This document shows, one piece after another, positions 2,476 to 54,384 of a stretch of DNA of 64,000 nt (position 1 is its first letter; the number at the start of each line of letters is the position of its first letter). The stretch is from Xenorhabdus ishibashii (GTDB lineage: Bacteria; Pseudomonadota; Gammaproteobacteria; Enterobacterales; Enterobacteriaceae), in contig NZ_NJAK01000001.1 of the NCBI RefSeq assembly GCF_002632755.1, positions 1,426,001-1,490,000 of the forward strand, read 5' to 3'. The notes under the pieces are model-generated. The model worked only from the letters and a program-made list of their open reading frames with translations. It did no database searches and was not told the DNA's origin. A program made the position numbers and the translations under genes.

Positions 2476-2680
2476 GAAAATACCTGTTATTAAATGAGTG
2501 AAGGCTCAAGCATAACAGCACTGTCTAGATGGGTAAACGCGTGAGAGGTGTCAAAGGAAGGTTTTACTTTTGAAAACCACAAATACGTTATTATGTTTTA
2601 GATAAGTAAGGATTCAGATCAGAAAAATTGCCACACTGTCTATTGGCTACTAAATCAAAATAACGTTCTATTTTAAATAC

Positions 2681-2711
2681 AAAAAACGCCGGCAATGCCA
2701 GCGTTTTTTGT
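2681..2711 (-). terminator. Intrinsic terminator of the rpsF-priB-rpsR-rplI operon
   Basis: On the minus strand AAAAAACGCTGGC pairs with GCCGGCGTTTTTT, a G/C-rich stem flanked by A- and T-runs on both sides. It lies about 26 nt after the rplI stop and could act in both directions. Confidence 0.9.
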
Positions 2712-2736
2712 CACATGTTCTTCAGCTAATCAATGA

Positions 2737-3189
2737 TTAAGCTTCTGGAACGATGTTAACGTTCAACTGTGCGAATACATCGCTGTGTACCTGGAAGTGA
2801 ACTTCGTGTTCACCCACAGTACGCAGAACGCCGTTAGGCAGGCGAACTTCGCTCTTAGATACTTCAACGCCAGCAGCAGTCACTGCATCAGCGATGTCAC
2901 GAGTACCGATAGAACCGAACAGTTTACCTTCATCACCCGCTTTAGAAGCGATAGTGACAGAACCCAGTGCACTGATTTTCTCTGCACGAGCTTCTGCTGC
3001 TGCCAGAACGTCAGTCAGTTTAGCTTCCAGTTCAGCACGGCGAGCTTCGAAGAATTCGATGTTTTTCTTAGTTGCAGGAACAGCTTTGCCCTGTGGTACT
3101 AAGAAGTTACGGGCATAACCCGCTTTAACGTTAACTTGGTCACCCAGGCTACCCAGGTTCGCTACTTTATCAAGCAGAATAATTTGCAT
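2737..3189 (-). CDS. rplI: 50S ribosomal protein bL9
   Basis: 150 residues, close to the usual 149. The N-terminal RNA-binding domain begins [19 protein letters not shown] and holds the family signature [14 protein letters not shown] long connecting helix (about residues 41-75) leads to the C-terminal domain with [12 protein letters not shown]. It binds 23S rRNA at the base of the L1 stalk. Last gene of the operon rpsF-priB-rpsR-rplI, 38 nt after rpsR and just before the operon terminator. Confidence 0.98.
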
Positions 3190-3227
3190 TACCTTATCCT
3201 CTCAAAGTCGTTAATGGACTGAGCCTA

Positions 3228-3777
<550 letters not shown>

Positions 3778-3782
3778 GGTAA

Positions 3783-4181
3783 TTACTCTTCAGAATCCCC
3801 AGCTTCATCAGCATCATCAATCAGGTCTTCTTCCAAGACCAGATCACGGCTGCGACGTTCGTCTTTAGCCTTAACCATTGGTGATGCTTCAGTTACTGCG
3901 TGCTTAACGCGCATAACCATGCTGCGGATAACGGCGTCGTTGAAGCGGAAGTTAGTTTCCAGCTCATCAATCGCTTCTTGTGGCGCTTCAACGTTCATCA
4001 GAACGTAGTGAGCCTTGTGCAGTTTGTTGATTGGGTAAGCCAGTTGACGACGACCCCAGTCTTCCAGACGGTGAATCTGACCTTGCGCGTTAGCGATAGT
4101 CGCACTGTAACGCTCGATCATGCCCGGAACTTGTTCGCTTTGGTCAGGATGGACCATAAAAACGATTTCGTAATGACGCAT
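3783..4181 (-). CDS. rpsF: 30S ribosomal protein bS6
   Basis: 132 residues. The S6 ferredoxin-like fold is evident in [19 protein letters not shown], the [14 protein letters not shown] motif and [18 protein letters not shown]. The tail is very acidic and ends in Glu-Glu, the place where RimK adds further glutamates in E. coli. First gene of the operon; a clear GGAGCAATCA precedes its ATG. The leader carries a hairpin matching the S6:S18 autoregulatory site. Confidence 0.97.
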
Positions 4182-4205
4182 TGATTGCTCCTTACGGATT
4201 ATTCA

Positions 4206-4240
4206 GCCTCCTGTCAGGGTCAGCCGTGGCCCATGGAGGC
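4206..4240 (-). promoter_or_regulatory. S6:S18-binding leader hairpin of rpsF mRNA
   Basis: On the minus strand GCCTCC pairs with GGAGGC around an internal segment containing GGGCCACGGCTGACCC, ending 24 nt before the rpsF start codon. Known biology: in many bacteria the S6:S18 complex binds a stem with a conserved CCG-type loop in this leader and represses translation. I see the position and outer stem directly; the match to the published motif is from memory. Confidence 0.6.
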
Positions 4241-4330
4241 AAGGAACGTGTTTAGTACGGCTGAAAAATCGACGCGTCACTATACCCGTACAATACAAAA
4301 AACTCAATAAAGAATTGCTGGAATAAAGAA

Positions 4331-18763: not shown

Positions 18764-18966
18764 CGAAAAATATCTGTTTTGATTTATTGAATTAGAGACT
18801 AATCAGGTAGACATATCAGTTAATAGCTTAACCGATAACCATAACATAATTCAGACATTATCATTTAATATCTTCTGTGCCACTGTAATGTCCATAGATC
18901 GTATTTTTGTATTCAATCCCCTCTGTGTTAAGCTAACCATCCTCTTTCAGCAGTAATTTGTATTTC

Positions 18967-20124
18967 ATGACAACCCACCTCGATCTGAATCTTCTGGCAA
19001 CAAACATCAAACAATGGGGCCTTGCCCTTGGTTTCCAGCAAGTCGGCATCTGTGACACCGATTTATCGGCAGAAGAGCCAAGGCTACAGGAATGGCTTGA
19101 TAAGCAATATCATGGCGAAATGGACTGGATGGTTCGTCACGGCATGATGCGCGCCCGCCCCCATGAGCTTCTGCCGGGGACTTTACGGGTTATCAGTGTA
19201 CGCATGAATTATCTGCCTGCTAAAGCAGCGTTTGCCAGTACGCTTAACAACCCACAAATGGGTTATATTAGCCGTTATTCATTGGGTCGAGATTATCATA
19301 AACTGCTGCGTCAACGTCTCAAAAAACTGGGCGACAAAATCCAGGAATATTGTCGCGCTCACGAATATCAAGGAATTCTGAATTTTCGTCCTTTTGTCGA
19401 TTCAGCCCCAATTATGGAGCGTCCACTGGCAGAAAAAGCGGGGCTTGGCTGGGTTGGTAAACACTCACTTATATTAAATCGTGAATCGGGTTCTTGGTTT
19501 TTCCTTGGTGAATTACTGATTAACCTCCCCCTGCCCATCGATGCTCCGCAAGAGGAACAATGCGGACGCTGTGTGGCCTGCATGACAACTTGTCCAACGG
19601 GAGCCATTGTTGAGCCTTACACCATCGATGCCAGACGCTGCATCTCTTATCTGACCATTGAATTGGAAGGTGTCATTCCAGAAGAATTTCGTCCACTGAT
19701 GGGCAACCGGATTTATGGCTGCGATGATTGTCAGCTTATTTGTCCCTGGAACCGTTTTTCTCAATTAACAGATGAAGCTGACTTTAACCCACGTGCTGCG
19801 CTGCATACCCCTGATCTGCTAGCGTTATTCAATTGGAGCGAGGAAAAGTTTCTGCGTATCACGGAAGGTTCGCCAATTCGCCGTATTGGATATTTGCGCT
19901 GGTTACGCAACATTTCCGTTGCCTTGGGCAATGCCCCCTATCAAGATGACATCGTGTTAGCGTTGGAAAAACGGTTCGGCTTAAGTGAAATTTTGGATGA
20001 ACATATCCACTGGGCGATAACCCAACAAATGGCTCGACGGAATGCTGATGCCATCGAAGTTCAAACCTCACAACAAAAACGATTGATAAGAGCAATAACC
20101 AAAGGTTTACCCAGAGATGCCTAA
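18967..20124 (+). CDS. queG: Epoxyqueuosine reductase QueG
   Basis: 385 residues from the ATG. It reduces epoxyqueuosine to queuosine in tRNA, using cobalamin and two [4Fe-4S] clusters. RPFVDSAPIMERPLAEKAGLGW is near residue 140 (here split by its neighbours), and two cluster motifs follow: CGRCVACMTTCPTGAI near 198 and YGCDDCQLICPWNRF near 255. An in-frame TTG nine bases upstream extends the frame, but ATGACAACC aligns better with known starts. It diverges from tsaE and is followed by the datA-like region. Confidence 0.95.
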   Translation: MTTHLDLNLLATNIKQWGLALGFQQVGICDTDLSAEEPRLQEWLDKQYHGEMDWMVRHGMMRARPHELLPGTLRVISVRMNYLPAKAAFASTLNNPQMGYISRYSLGRDYHKLLRQRLKKLGDKIQEYCRAHEYQGILNFRPFVDSAPIMERPLAEKAGLGWVGKHSLILNRESGSWFFLGELLINLPLPIDAPQEEQCGRCVACMTTCPTGAIVEPYTIDARRCISYLTIELEGVIPEEFRPLMGNRIYGCDDCQLICPWNRFSQLTDEADFNPRAALHTPDLLALFNWSEEKFLRITEGSPIRRIGYLRWLRNISVALGNAPYQDDIVLALEKRFGLSEILDEHIHWAITQQMARRNADAIEVQTSQQKRLIRAITKGLPRDA

Positions 20125-20169
20125 TAATCGGGCAGCCAAATTTCTGGTAAAAAAAGTCTTTCATTTCCT

Positions 20170-20178
20170 TGTGAATAA
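20170..20178 (-). promoter_or_regulatory. DnaA box 1
   Basis: The minus strand reads TTATTCACA, a full match to the TTATNCACA consensus. Upstream-most box of the datA-like locus. Confidence 0.7.
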
Positions 20179-20262
20179 AATGAAAACACTTTACTGATCA
20201 ACTAACAGACAGAAAATAAATATTGATCATGCTATTTTTAAATTAGGTTAATTATCTTAATT

Positions 20263-20275
20263 AATCAATGAGTTA
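20263..20275 (+). promoter_or_regulatory. IHF site in the datA-like locus
   Basis: AATCAATGAGTTA fits WATCAANNNNTTR at every position and is surrounded by AT-rich sequence. It lies between DnaA boxes 1 and 2, where IHF is needed in E. coli datA. Confidence 0.65.
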
Positions 20276-20332
20276 AGTTTTATCTGTTGTTATGAATGGT
20301 AATTTCAAAAAACCAAAAGCAAAGAAGCCGCC

Positions 20333-20341
20333 TGTGGATAA
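20333..20341 (-). promoter_or_regulatory. DnaA box 2
   Basis: The minus strand reads TTATCCACA, the strongest DnaA-box sequence. A one-mismatch box (TGTGTAATA) follows at 20345-20353. Confidence 0.75.
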
Positions 20342-20399
20342 CTCTGTGTAATAAGTAGAGCGTCATCAGGTGACTCAATAAGGCGATAATGTTAAAAAC

Positions 20400-20408
20400 T
20401 GTGGATAA
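20400..20408 (-). promoter_or_regulatory. DnaA box 3
   Basis: A second perfect TTATCCACA on the minus strand, 67 bp from box 2 and in the same orientation. Confidence 0.75.
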
Positions 20409-20599
20409 AAATAAGAATTGAATTCTGGTAGTCAACACCAGAAATCAGCAGCGAAGTAATAGCCCACTCACACATTCTAGACGCTAGTGGAGAAATTTTC
20501 CTCTGCCTCTTCAAAAATGAGGCGGCATTATGGACTTGTTGAGGCAGGATAGCAAGCGCTTTATCGACAATTTATTTTGGATTGAGCTTGTAATATGTG

Positions 20600-20624
20600 C
20601 CAGCATTCAACGCTGGTATTTTTT
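20600..20624 (+). terminator. Terminator-like hairpin in the queG-tRNA gap
   Basis: CCAGC and GCTGG form a 5-bp stem with a 7-nt loop, followed by TATTTTTT on the plus strand. No plus-strand gene ends nearby; queG ended almost 480 nt before. It may end an unannotated short RNA, or be chance. Confidence 0.4.
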
Positions 20625-20794
20625 CCTTACTCACGGTTTCCTTGCCGACTTGTGATCTTCTCCTTCATGAATAAAAATGGTTGACCATTCTATGTAGTTG
20701 ATATAACAAGCCTTACTAGTCATTATTAAATAGATAAAATACAATCACAAACGCAGATATTCTTATGGAAGGAAGATAACAAAATAGAGGAAAT

Positions 20795-20870
<76 letters not shown>

Positions 20871-20944: not shown

Positions 20945-21250
20945 GGTAATTCTTAGAACCTGCATATCAGGAATGGGCGCCATTATGAACGTGTTCAGAT
21001 AAAATGGCAAGCCCTTTGCTTTTACTACCGAGTTAAACGCTCAAAAGATATTCTCCTCAGTTTACGCAAAAATCTATGCCATAACCCCAACAGCTAGCTG
21101 GAATACCAAGCAGCATGGAGTTAACATTAAATAAACAATTAACTAACATCTAATAAGATTTATGCTTGTCCTAACGATTTTGTGGAAATAGATTAACAAC
21201 AATTTTCGTTGTTACTTAGATGATTATTCTCTTGAGAGAGGGTCTGGAAC

Positions 21251-24200
21251 ATGGCTCGATATTATCAATCTAAATTTGTCACGGGTACTGAGGCGCTGGT
21301 TGACCTTCTGCTCGCTCAAGCTGAGTTGGATGAAATCCACAGTCTCAACACAGCAGGGTTTGTTTCAGGTTATCGCGGCTCTCCTTTAGCCCGCTTAGAT
21401 CAAACATTATGGCAACACAGCAAAGAACTTATTCAAGCCAATATTCGCTTTCAACCTGCCGTCAATGAAGATCTCGCAGCCGATGCACTGATAGGAACAC
21501 AAAAAGTCGAAACAGATCCGGATAGACAGGTTAACGGCGTTTTTGGTATGTGGTACGGCAAAGGGCCAGGCGTCGATCGTTCCGGTGATGCACTTAAACA
21601 TGGCAATGCCTACGGCTCCTCTCCGCACGGTGGCGTGCTGGTGATCGTCGGAGACGATCACGGTTGCGTCTCTTCTTCCATGTCCCACCAATCTGACCTT
21701 GCGATGATGGCATGGAGTATGCCTGTTTTGCACCCAGCATCAGTTGACGATTATCTCAATGTTGGATTGTGGGGCTGGGCGGCATCACGTGTTAGCGGTG
21801 CATGGTTTGGCTTTAAAGCAATCAGTGAAGTCGTGGAAAGTGGTGCAGTCAGAGAAAGCAAACCATTTCCTGATTATCAATTTCCCCAAGTTGATCCTGG
21901 CCCCGATGGGCTTCACTGGCGCTGGCCTGATCTCCCTGGCCCACAAATTGAAAAGCGTTTGGCTTATAAACTGAAAGCCGTTGAAGAGTTCGCCAAACTT
22001 AACCCCATTGATTACCTGCTCACCCCCTGCAAACATCCACACGCTTTATTGGTAACGGTTGGCAAAGCCCATAAGGATGTTATGGAAGCCCTGCGGGTTG
22101 GGGGTCTAACGCCTTCTGAACTAGCCCAACAAGGCATCGCTTTTCTCCATATCCGTTTGGTTTATCCTTTATCACCGCTTCTCAGCGAGCTTGCTACCCA
22201 AGTCAGCCATATTTTTGTTATTGAAGAAAAAGCCGCCATCGTTGAAATGCTGCTGGCTCATCAGTTAGTTAGATTACAGAAAATGACCAACCTGATAGGT
22301 AAACATAACCATCTTGGTCAGAAATTGTTACCCACTGACATTGAACTACGCCCTTCACGGGTTGCTGCCCCACTTTCTGGCTGGTTACAACAATTCAATT
22401 TATTTCTTTCCGTGCCACCAGAATGGTCTACGGCTACCACTCAGCACAACGCAACGTTACCCAAACGTACACCTTATTTCTGCGCCGGATGCCCCCATAG
22501 CACTTCAACTCGCTTGCCAGACGGCAGCCAAGCCCAGATTGGTATTGGATGTCATGTCATGGCCGCGTGGATGGATCGCAACACCGGAAACGGCCTCTTG
22601 CAAATGGGAGGAGAAGGTATCGACTGGATAGGGCATGCTCCGTTTGTAAATCGCTCCCACGTCTTTCAAAATCTGGGAGATGGCACCTATTTCCATTCTG
22701 GTCACTTAGCCATTCGCCAATCAGTCGCTGCTGGGAGCCATATTACTTACAAGTTGCTGTTCAATGATGCTGTGGCGATGACAGGCGGGCAGCCGCTGGA
22801 TGGAAATATCACCCTAGTGCAAATGGTTTCTTTGATGCTGGCAGAAGGTGTGAAAGAAGTGGTTGTCGTGACGGATGACCTTGGTAAATACACAGGTAAA
22901 AACAGCCTTCCATCCAATGTGAAACTCTATGGGCGGGATTATCTTGAAGATGTGCAGAAACGTCTTCGAGATATCGTTGGTGTAACGGTACTCATCTACG
23001 ATCAAACCTGTGCCACAGAACTACGCCGTAAAAGAAAGCGTGGATTGACGCCAAAAGCAACGCGCCGTGCCGTTATCAACGAATGGGTTTGTGAGGGATG
23101 TGGTGACTGCCAAATACAATCAAATTGCCTTGCTGTTATTCCCGCCAAAACATCTTTAGGCACTAAACGCAAGATAGACCAACACGTTTGCAATTCAGAT
23201 CTGTCCTGTCTGAAAGGATTTTGCCCCAGCTTTATCACTGTCGAAAATGCCAACCCTCGCGCAGATCTCAGTAAAATCATCTCACAGGCTGAGTTAGATA
23301 CAATTATCCGCCAACTACCGCAGCCAGCATTGCCTTCTGCCGAAACACCTTATGAAATCCTGTTAGTCGGTATCGGCGGTACCGGTATTGTCACTGCAGG
23401 CCATTTACTTGCAAATGCCGCACAATTAGATAACTGTTTTGTCAGCCTGCTCAATTTTACCGGATTTGCTCAAAAAGGCGGAGAGGCCATAACCCATGTT
23501 CGGTTATGCCATGATAAAGATAAACTGCATCAAGTCAGGATTGATCGCGGGCGAGCTAATCTGGTTATCGCCGCTGATTTAGTGGCTGCAACAGGGCAAA
23601 ACTCACTGGAAGTGATGTCTAGAGGATCAACAAAATGCATACTGAACACCCATGAAACCCAAATAGGCACTATGCTCCGCTCCCCTACGCTGGATTTGGA
23701 TAATCCCAAAATGCTAGACATTCTGAATCAACACACACAGATATTATTCTCCATTGATGCAGAAATGATGGCTGCTCATCTAGTCGGTGACAGAGACCAA
23801 ACAAATATCATATTAATGGGTTATGCCTGGCAGCTCGGCAAACTCCCAATCACATTATCTGCCATCAACAATGCGATGCAAGAATTGGGAACTTCAGCAG
23901 ATAATGCTCGGCGAGCGTTCTGTATAGGCCGCATCGCGGCAGAACAACCCGATATTCTGCAAAAACACCTCAATATTGCTCCGCAAGAAAATATAAAAAG
24001 CCTGGATGATCTCATTATGCATCGGTATCAATTTCTGGTTGATTATCAAAATGAAAGATATGCGATGCGTTATCTCAGCCGTATTGCCCAGGTTCAAATG
24101 GTGGCTCAGCAGATCGATGCAGAAGAAATGACTAAATCCATTGCTGAGAACTTATTCAAATTAATGGCGTATAAAGATGAATATGAAGTTGCCCGACTCT

Positions 24201-24619
24201 ACGTCAAAACCGGTTTTTTCGATAAACTCCGCTCACAATTTGATAATACAAATACCATTCGTTTTCACCTTAGCCTTCCTCTCTTCAATCGCAAAGATCC
24301 CCGAACAGGCCAACGCGGAAAAAGAGAATATGGTTCATGGATCATTCCTGTATTCCATTTTCTTGCCGCATGTAAATCACTGCGTGGTACTGTTTTCGAT
24401 ATTTTTGGCTATCAGGAAGAGCGTAAACAGGAAAGAAATTTGCTGCTTGAGTATGAGCGATTAATTGATTTTTTAATCGAAAAAATGGAACGCAATAATT
24501 TGGCAATTTGCCTACAACTTGCTGAGCTACCTAATCAGGTGCGTGGTTTTGGTCATGTGAAGCAAAAAGCGATGAAACGCATGTTGGAAAGCAAAGAAGA
24601 GTTGTTGAAATCGTTATAA
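21251..24619 (+). CDS. Indolepyruvate ferredoxin oxidoreductase family protein (fused subunits)
   Basis: 1122 residues, the length of the single-chain 2-oxoacid oxidoreductases. An N-terminal pyrimidine-binding region (about 30-240) contains GFVSGYRGSPL. A thiamine diphosphate domain (about 430-600) has FCAGCPHS and LGDGTYFHSG with NDAVAMTGGQ. A ferredoxin-like stretch (about 640-690) has WVCEGCGDCQ and further cysteines. A gamma-type domain (about 720-900) has VGIGGTGIVTAGHLL, and a C-terminal domain of unknown function follows. The family oxidatively decarboxylates aryl or branched 2-oxoacids to acyl-CoA; the substrate here is unknown. GAGAGAGGG precedes the ATG. It lies inside the tRNA-Gly array on the opposite strand, with its own terminator. 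Confidence 0.9.
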   Translation: MARYYQSKFVTGTEALVDLLLAQAELDEIHSLNTAGFVSGYRGSPLARLDQTLWQHSKELIQANIRFQPAVNEDLAADALIGTQKVETDPDRQVNGVFGMWYGKGPGVDRSGDALKHGNAYGSSPHGGVLVIVGDDHGCVSSSMSHQSDLAMMAWSMPVLHPASVDDYLNVGLWGWAASRVSGAWFGFKAISEVVESGAVRESKPFPDYQFPQVDPGPDGLHWRWPDLPGPQIEKRLAYKLKAVEEFAKLNPIDYLLTPCKHPHALLVTVGKAHKDVMEALRVGGLTPSELAQQGIAFLHIRLVYPLSPLLSELATQVSHIFVIEEKAAIVEMLLAHQLVRLQKMTNLIGKHNHLGQKLLPTDIELRPSRVAAPLSGWLQQFNLFLSVPPEWSTATTQHNATLPKRTPYFCAGCPHSTSTRLPDGSQAQIGIGCHVMAAWMDRNTGNGLLQMGGEGIDWIGHAPFVNRSHVFQNLGDGTYFHSGHLAIRQSVAAGSHITYKLLFNDAVAMTGGQPLDGNITLVQMVSLMLAEGVKEVVVVTDDLGKYTGKNSLPSNVKLYGRDYLEDVQKRLRDIVGVTVLIYDQTCATELRRKRKRGLTPKATRRAVINEWVCEGCGDCQIQSNCLAVIPAKTSLGTKRKIDQHVCNSDLSCLKGFCPSFITVENANPRADLSKIISQAELDTIIRQLPQPALPSAETPYEILLVGIGGTGIVTAGHLLANAAQLDNCFVSLLNFTGFAQKGGEAITHVRLCHDKDKLHQVRIDRGRANLVIAADLVAATGQNSLEVMSRGSTKCILNTHETQIGTMLRSPTLDLDNPKMLDILNQHTQILFSIDAEMMAAHLVGDRDQTNIILMGYAWQLGKLPITLSAINNAMQELGTSADNARRAFCIGRIAAEQPDILQKHLNIAPQENIKSLDDLIMHRYQFLVDYQNERYAMRYLSRIAQVQMVAQQIDAEEMTKSIAENLFKLMAYKDEYEVARLYVKTGFFDKLRSQFDNTNTIRFHLSLPLFNRKDPRTGQRGKREYGSWIIPVFHFLAACKSLRGTVFDIFGYQEERKQERNLLLEYERLIDFLIEKMERNNLAICLQLAELPNQVRGFGHVKQKAMKRMLESKEELLKSL

Positions 24620-54173: not shown

Positions 54174-54384
54174 AAAAAAAAACACCTATCAAAAAAGACA
54201 GGTGTATAAATACAATCAGGTCTACAGACGGATAGTGCCTCACTCAACGTTGTGTCCGGTTTGCGATGAAAAGACAAATGCTAACTCATCTATAACGTGG
54301 ACCATAGGCACTGACAATCAGCTCTACATCATCCCGAGATTTATGAAGTCATATGCTGTCATAAGGAGTGGGATGAGCATCTAC
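54174..54384 (-). ncRNA. glmZ: Small RNA GlmZ
   Basis: About 211 nt on the minus strand. The 5' end GTAGATGCTCATCCCACTCC and the internal GGACACAACGTTGAGTGAGG match E. coli GlmZ; the latter is the block that pairs with the glmS leader. TGTAGACCTG follows, and the RNA ends in an ACACCT/AGGTGT hairpin with nine T at 54174-54205. Its place between hemY and the tRNA operon is that of E. coli glmZ. With Hfq it activates glmS translation for glucosamine-6-phosphate supply, and is cleaved by RNase E with RapZ unless GlmY intervenes. No other gene lies in 54040-54790. Confidence 0.92.

Follow-up and report, generated by a model that had tools for sequence, protein, structure and literature searches.

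In E. coli, the essential activity described for the datA locus is the IHF-dependent hydrolysis of DnaA-bound ATP (DDAH; PMC5742627, PMC5835720). Its minimal core is described as a 183-bp segment comprising DnaA boxes 7 and 2, an IHF-binding site (IBS) and box 3, with the essential boxes in one direction (PMC5742627); a length of 187 bp is given elsewhere (PMC10380432, PMC13036160). The essential box 7, which has two misfits, adjoins box 2 (PMC5835720), box 1 is reported to be dispensable for DDAH (PMC10950094), box 4 is reported not to be essential in vivo (PMC5742627), and datA as a whole can be deleted from cells that stay viable (PMC4585315). According to a 2024 report, transcriptional read-through from glyVXY is needed, although not sufficient, to remove IHF from datA, and the glyVXY tRNA terminator (T-glyVXY) overlaps box 1 (PMC10950094). 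Conservation of DARS2, not of datA, has been published for Photorhabdus and Vibrio cholerae (PMC8682772); we recognised no earlier report of datA outside E. coli, in a literature search in which datA could not be separated from the ordinary word 'data', and such reports may exist.

The stretch analysed here, referred to as the window, comprises 64,000 nucleotides of the Xenorhabdus ishibashii genome. A first-pass annotation had placed a datA-like, DnaA-titrating locus between queG and tRNA-Gly, with three DnaA boxes in one orientation and an IHF site between boxes. These positions proved exact: the boxes lie at 20170, 20333 and 20400, all on the minus strand, and the IHF site at 20263, in a gap bounded by the end of queG at 20124 and by tRNA-Gly from position 20795 on. 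One further box (20345-20353) had not been listed. Box names were assigned by matching to published E. coli descriptions, and the features are as follows.

18958-20124, plus strand: queG, the convergent neighbour of datA
20170-20353, no strand assigned: datA core, 184 bp (183 bp in MG1655)
20170-20178, minus strand: DnaA box 3, TTATTCACA, from a TTWTNCACA scan; same box and place as E. coli box 3
20263-20275, plus strand: putative IHF-binding site (IBS), AATCAATGAGTTA, from a consensus scan
20333-20341, minus strand: DnaA box 2, TTATCCACA, within the wider conserved word ACAGASTTATCCACA (20333-20347)
20345-20353, minus strand: equivalent of DnaA box 7, TATTACACA, CACA-type, 12 bp from box 2
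20400-20408, minus strand: DnaA box 1, TTATCCACA, from the TTWTNCACA scan and E. coli spacing
20423-20443, minus strand: hairpin TTCTGGT/ACCAGAA, followed by a U-rich tract into box 1; a tentative candidate for an attenuator
20527-20555, minus strand: predicted stable-RNA-type promoter, TTGCTA-N17-CATAAT, with discriminator GCCGCC at 20521-20526, directed toward datA
20795-20870, minus strand: tRNA-Gly(GCC), transcribed toward datA
20982-21010, minus strand: predicted tRNA-Gly promoter, TTGCCA-N17-CATAAT-GGCGCCC

In the MG1655 locus, reversed to the same orientation, the coordinates are 1587 for box 3 (TTATTCACA), 1680 for the IHF site, 1749 for box 2 (TTATCCACA), 1761 for a box with two mismatches (TTGTAAACA) and 1816 for box 1 (ATATCCACA). 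The distances from box 3 to the IHF site, box 2 and box 7 in turn, and then from box 2 to box 1, are 93/70/12/67 bp in the window and 93/69/12/67 bp in MG1655. Boxes 3 and 7 included, the core spans 184 bp in the window and exactly 183 bp in MG1655; TTGTAAACA was taken to be box 7 on the published description of a two-misfit box beside box 2 and of a 183-bp core, which fits these E. coli coordinates exactly. The two loci thus agree in their neighbouring genes, in which boxes they carry and how these are directed, in spacing (to within 1 bp), in a central IHF site and in an oriC-proximal position. The remark in the first-pass annotation that the spacing departs from that of E. coli was therefore mistaken; the predicted transcriptional input and the sequence class of box 7 do differ. 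In the window tRNA-Gly lies 454 bp from box 2 rather than 86 bp, a single tRNA-Gly is adjacent and a predicted stable-RNA-type promoter stands between it and datA, box 7 is of the CACA type and nearer to consensus than the E. coli TTGTAAACA, and box 1 is a full consensus box. Box 4, which is stimulatory in vitro in E. coli, was not recognisable in the window (best match, three mismatches); being non-essential in vivo, its absence does not decide whether the locus is a datA.

Boxes 1, 2 and 3 account for three of only four TTWTNCACA sites in the window. The 3.86-Mb assembly holds 434 such sites, so that the probability of three falling in a given 239 bp is about 3e-6. The geometry of boxes 3 and 2 occurs a single time in the genome, and its reversed pattern gave no match genome-wide. 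IHF consensus matches are by themselves not significant (7 in the window against 4.9 expected); the IHF site counts as evidence for its fixed position and not for its rarity.

Conservation of the boxes and of their spacing was looked for in the queG region of relatives, and was found. In an alignment of 44 regions (the window, MG1655 and 42 further loci) anchored on box 2, box 2 with its flank, TGTGGATAASTCTGT, was present in all 44, and box 3 was free of mismatches in 41 and had one in 3. The IHF site carried 0, 1, 2 and 3 mismatches in 18, 17, 6 and 3 loci; it is thus intact or nearly so (0 or 1 mismatch) in 35/44, compared with 2.9% of shuffles (0.1% for none, 2.8% for one), and degenerate in 9/44. 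Site columns were 78% identical and spacers 39% across the 44 loci, and 96% and 70% across six Xenorhabdus, figures which favour box 2 because the alignment was anchored there. Hence in the core, box 3-IHF site-box 2-box 7 in one direction, the sites are conserved and the spacers drift. The distance from box 3 to box 2 was 159-165 bp in 44/44 loci and 157-165 bp in 85/85 same-family cores, the search having covered only about 154-168 bp in both data sets. In 25 of the 44 loci (e.g. L009) a further motif, CAANNGATC, mostly CAAGYGATC, stands between boxes 3 and 2 at +48 from box 3 of Enterobacterales datA; its GATC falls at exactly +53 in 22 loci, and the window has a GATC at +55 with no CAAG.

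Box 7 of the window, TATTACACA, has one mismatch with CACA intact. The ten alignment rows that come from Xenorhabdus, Photorhabdus, Proteus and Morganella all show this type, and none of the other 34 does; the 85 same-family cores comprise 76 AACA-type and 9 CACA-type boxes. Since DnaA is reported to read TnCACA (PMC5742627), box 7 probably has a higher affinity here than the low-affinity E. coli box.

The family sample comprised 149 genomes, 92 of them with a queG match, of which six with a partial or interrupted queG were handled apart. A core, called when box 3 had at most one mismatch, lay beside queG in 85 of the 86 genomes whose queG is near full length, a set to which this genome belongs; G069 had no core beside queG, nor a match to the pattern anywhere in its genome. 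At locus L206, whose boxes are 165 bp apart, the core was missed through the position cut-off of the script alone. The core was also kept in 6/7 genomes with lost or partial queG (five by the genome-wide pattern and G104 by boxes 154 bp apart), none being found in G032. Six of the family's genomes besides G031 have a partial or interrupted queG; in G031 itself the gene is gone, and the order reads tsaE, nnr, datA, three tRNA-Gly, orn, rsgA (names by resemblance; L236, positions 2594-3545). We therefore rejected the idea that conservation of the core merely hitch-hikes on queG. The loci were found through queG and genomes lacking it were barely sampled; of the 57 same-family genomes with no queG match, the pattern was run on G031 (one match) and on eight small genomes (none).

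The proteins on which DDAH would depend are encoded in this genome. DnaA is identical to that of E. coli at 420/459 aligned residues and throughout its DNA-binding domain IV (93/93), and it keeps K178, R281, R285 and R334, the residues needed for DDAH. Both IHF alpha and IHF beta are encoded, above curated cut-offs, and both HU proteins are present. oriC lies at C1:1712317, placing datA 266 kb away, or 6.9% of the assembly; the corresponding distance in E. coli is 467 kb, or 10%. The sequence TGTGGATAACTCTGT is common to datA box 2 and to E. coli oriC, where it would be box R4, which belongs to the origin and not to a hydrolysis site. The whole 15-bp word TGTGGATAASTCTGT likewise stands on the minus strand of the E. 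coli oriC locus (L129), but is absent from the oriC locus of this genome (L131).

Together these comparisons indicate that, on sequence evidence, the locus is an orthologue of datA by every defining feature tested. We assign a probability of roughly 0.87 to the reading that it is a Xenorhabdus datA of E. coli-like core geometry at which IHF-dependent DDAH is opposed by incoming transcription. As in E. coli, IHF would bend the DNA between boxes 2 and 3, ATP-DnaA would form a head-to-tail assembly over boxes 7, 2 and 3, and hydrolysis of its ATP would leave less initiation-competent DnaA after oriC fires; transcription from the tRNA-Gly side would keep IHF off datA, as reported for E. coli, and here would come mainly from the predicted promoter at 20555-20527. 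To the E. coli picture the present analysis would add that predicted promoter, a different class of box 7, constraint on the locus throughout the family and a Vibrionaceae variant.

The distance between datA and tRNA-Gly varies widely. Among 43 loci, box 2 lies 86-241 bp from tRNA-Gly in 26, 454-507 bp in four (the window, X. beddingii, Proteus and Morganella) and 2.4-5.2 kb in five; six have no tRNA-Gly within roughly 6 kb, and two contigs were too short. A conserved and presumably HpaB-like ORF, 477-507 codons long, separates datA from tRNA-Gly in four loci (L010, L012, L013 and L052). In the window just one tRNA-Gly stands beside datA; the other two follow 3.8 kb further on, past a 1122-codon gene. 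This gene, of the indolepyruvate ferredoxin oxidoreductase family (21251-24619), splits the tRNA-Gly(GCC) cluster, and the junction is occupied by different genes in other Xenorhabdus and in Photorhabdus, suggesting an insertion hot spot.

Two predicted minus-strand promoters, at 21010-20982 and 20555-20527, point to datA. The second, predicted from consensus matching and conservation, lies 118 bp from box 1. It was found in 7/7 Xenorhabdus loci, and a matching element in 16/16 aligned loci of the group that contains Xenorhabdus, three of which (L017, L093 and L100) have poorer -35 boxes and fail a stricter filter. In the seven Xenorhabdus, promoter and leader (20470-20520) are each 91% conserved and the A+T-rich stretch just upstream of the promoter 87%, against 58-73% for the rest of the measured spacer. 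Both promoter filters are coarse. Under the stricter one the 64-kb window had 11 matches, two of the others being upstream of the window's tRNA-Gly genes; it matched 2.5% of shuffled window spacers, and failed to pick up the upstream region of glyV in E. coli. A terminator-like hairpin with a T run lies on the plus strand at 20597-20619, about 470 bp downstream of queG and beyond datA.

A looser filter, which admits poorer -35 boxes, was applied to loci in which the 300 bp next to box 2 contain no tRNA, whatever its kind, a class in which the sequence often ends about 0.6 kb past box 2, so that a tRNA may lie beyond. A predicted promoter was present in 30/40 such loci, three of them duplicate sequences (29/37 distinct), against 5.5% of shuffled segments, which keep single-base composition only, and 3/40 on the opposite strand; five loci were too short and L115, which has no box 2, was left out. 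It was absent from 8 of the 37 distinct loci, namely Pragia, Limnobaculum and six others. None of 83 loci with a near tRNA gave a promoter match, a class that offers no fair contrast because its gaps are mostly too short. Promoter-bearing loci with tRNA-Gly about 450 bp to kilobases away, or not found, include Xenorhabdus, Photorhabdus, Proteus, Morganella, Pectobacterium, Brenneria and Sodalis. A putative promoter, PyjeV, is reported at about the same place in E. coli (PMC10950094), and a promoter at that position is therefore not wholly new. What appears to be new is the stable-RNA class of the predicted promoter and its presence where tRNA is not adjacent, of which no description was found in the literature searched.

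Remnants of tRNA-Gly were sought in 39 loci, with 200 shuffles each. Behind the promoter, the last 11 bases of tRNA-Gly, TTCCCGCTCCA, persist in the Photorhabdus locus L014 (0/200 shuffles) and the last 10 in L015 (p 0.015); L114 has a 16/17 match to the 3' part (0/200 shuffles); L014 and L015, being close relatives, count as one lineage. L092, a relative of L014, matches at 10/11 letters (p 0.13), and L144 has an inner tRNA piece (p 0.04) and no promoter. The other 34 of the 39 loci, the window included, yielded no remnant below p 0.1. A value of 0.015 among 39 loci is unsurprising by chance, but 3' ends in the right direction at 0/200 in two lineages would be surprising. In Photorhabdus and L114 the promoter may thus be the ghost of a tRNA-Gly promoter, of whose tRNA only the 3' end has survived decay; since Xenorhabdus has no remnant, such an origin is conjecture for the promoter of the window.

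The predicted promoter stands between tRNA-Gly and datA, where it would have been retained, and it recurs in relatives with tRNA-Gly genes kilobases distant. We reasoned that transcription through datA may itself be under selection, and that the promoter, not the tRNA, may be what datA needs, a reading which we hold tentatively and at a little under even odds. An alternative, which we regard as less likely than not, is that the promoter at 20555 serves an unannotated small RNA gene whose end lies close to box 1, any effect on datA being incidental. The 91% conserved leader would suit such a gene, as would the hairpin and U-rich tract that precede box 1; however, the hairpin (20423-20443) has a fold z of just -1.57 and was not called as a terminator, its stretch is 64% conserved in Xenorhabdus, and the sequence downstream of the promoter varies between lineages that share it. 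No Rfam family matched in the datA spacer, on which ground a known RNA family there was rejected, and the tRNA-Gly 3' ends behind the promoter in Photorhabdus and L114 point to a former tRNA transcript instead. The hairpin and U-rich tract might conceivably act as an attenuator like E. coli T-glyVXY. Elsewhere in the window, Rfam matches were obtained for the GlmZ small RNA (54176-54384) and an RpsF leader (4179-4261).

With regard to the boxes themselves, the first-pass annotation had spoken of a DnaA-titrating locus. Its identification as datA is borne out by position, sites, orientation, spacing, conservation and proteins, whereas titration reflects an older view of datA. A plain titration cluster, whose boxes bind DnaA with no IHF-dependent ATP hydrolysis, is improbable: three consensus boxes alone would bind DnaA, and hydrolysis is invisible in sequence, but titration demands neither a fixed IHF site nor fixed spacing, and DnaA keeps R281, R285 and R334.

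More improbable still is a DARS-type site, which would reactivate ADP-DnaA. The 12-bp spacing of boxes 2 and 7 does equal that of the same-direction boxes in the E. coli DARS1 and DARS2 cores, and IHF is reported to be involved in DARS2 (PMC4245941). A DARS core, however, has a facing box 14 bp away; no facing pair within 30 bp was found in the window, and a relative of DARS2, taken as such from its likeness to the E. coli region upstream of mutH, sits elsewhere in the genome (C1:722515-722881). A DARS identity was accordingly rejected. The 12-bp unit of boxes 2 and 7 (20333-20353), common to datA and the E. coli DARS cores (L248, L244), suggests a shared DnaA dimer unit. Finally, DnaA also regulates transcription, and the transcription units on either side of the boxes converge on them, but a chance cluster, which the first-pass annotation too had thought unlikely and which the 3e-6 probability and the single genome-wide match reject, or boxes serving the queG or tRNA-Gly promoter, can be dismissed given a geometry unique in the genome, conserved across the family, and kept after queG loss and with tRNA-Gly far off.

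Beyond the family, the survey took in a further 20 families of the order, represented by 48 loci. The canonical spacing recurred in two of these families (f5, 1/1 loci; f11, 2/2), a third (f21, 8/8) showed the pattern of the Vibrionaceae loci and would on that basis be Vibrionaceae, and the box 2 word was found in 0/37 loci of the remaining 17. The best 80 of at least 598 queG loci comprised 42 Enterobacterales in the narrow sense, 22 Vibrionaceae and 16 other gammaproteobacteria; among these 80 best matches, the QueG of five Xenorhabdus loci is 92-94% identical to that of the window. In the 16 other gammaproteobacteria no consensus box was present within 700 nt after queG (90 nt counted for L084).

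A datA-like cluster was present in 30/30 Vibrionaceae-type loci (among L051-L089, plus L223-L225 and L231-L235), within about 420 bp after queG. Like the Xenorhabdus locus, it stands beside queG and has the same 15-bp box 2 word and an IHF-like site between the outer boxes, with 0, 1 and 2 mismatches in 9, 15 and 6 loci (0.4%, 5.7% and 35% of shuffles). It differs in a box 3-to-box 2 distance of 262-281 bp, in a box 3 of the TTTTCCACA kind (30/30, 28 exact) and in two plus-strand boxes, one TTAANCACA-like and exactly 48 bp past box 3 (28/30 exact), the other facing box 2 from 18-19 bp before it (an exact match in 23 loci, one mismatch in 7). Facing pairs are characteristic of DARS, although those of E. 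coli are spaced by 14 bp. Taken jointly with selection on the promoter, and as tentatively, we propose that the Vibrionaceae carry a rearranged relative, a second architecture of datA to which a facing box has been added.

The constraint on datA across the family, outlasting both the loss of queG and the distance of tRNA-Gly, suggests that the locus is important in nature. The timed removal of IHF from datA is an open question in the field, for which lineages with a tRNA-type promoter and no adjacent tRNA are natural tests of the read-through model; such lineages suggest the promoter class, with its growth-rate and stringent control, as the key input. If this is true, the promoter would couple the inactivation of DnaA to growth rate and to ppGpp.
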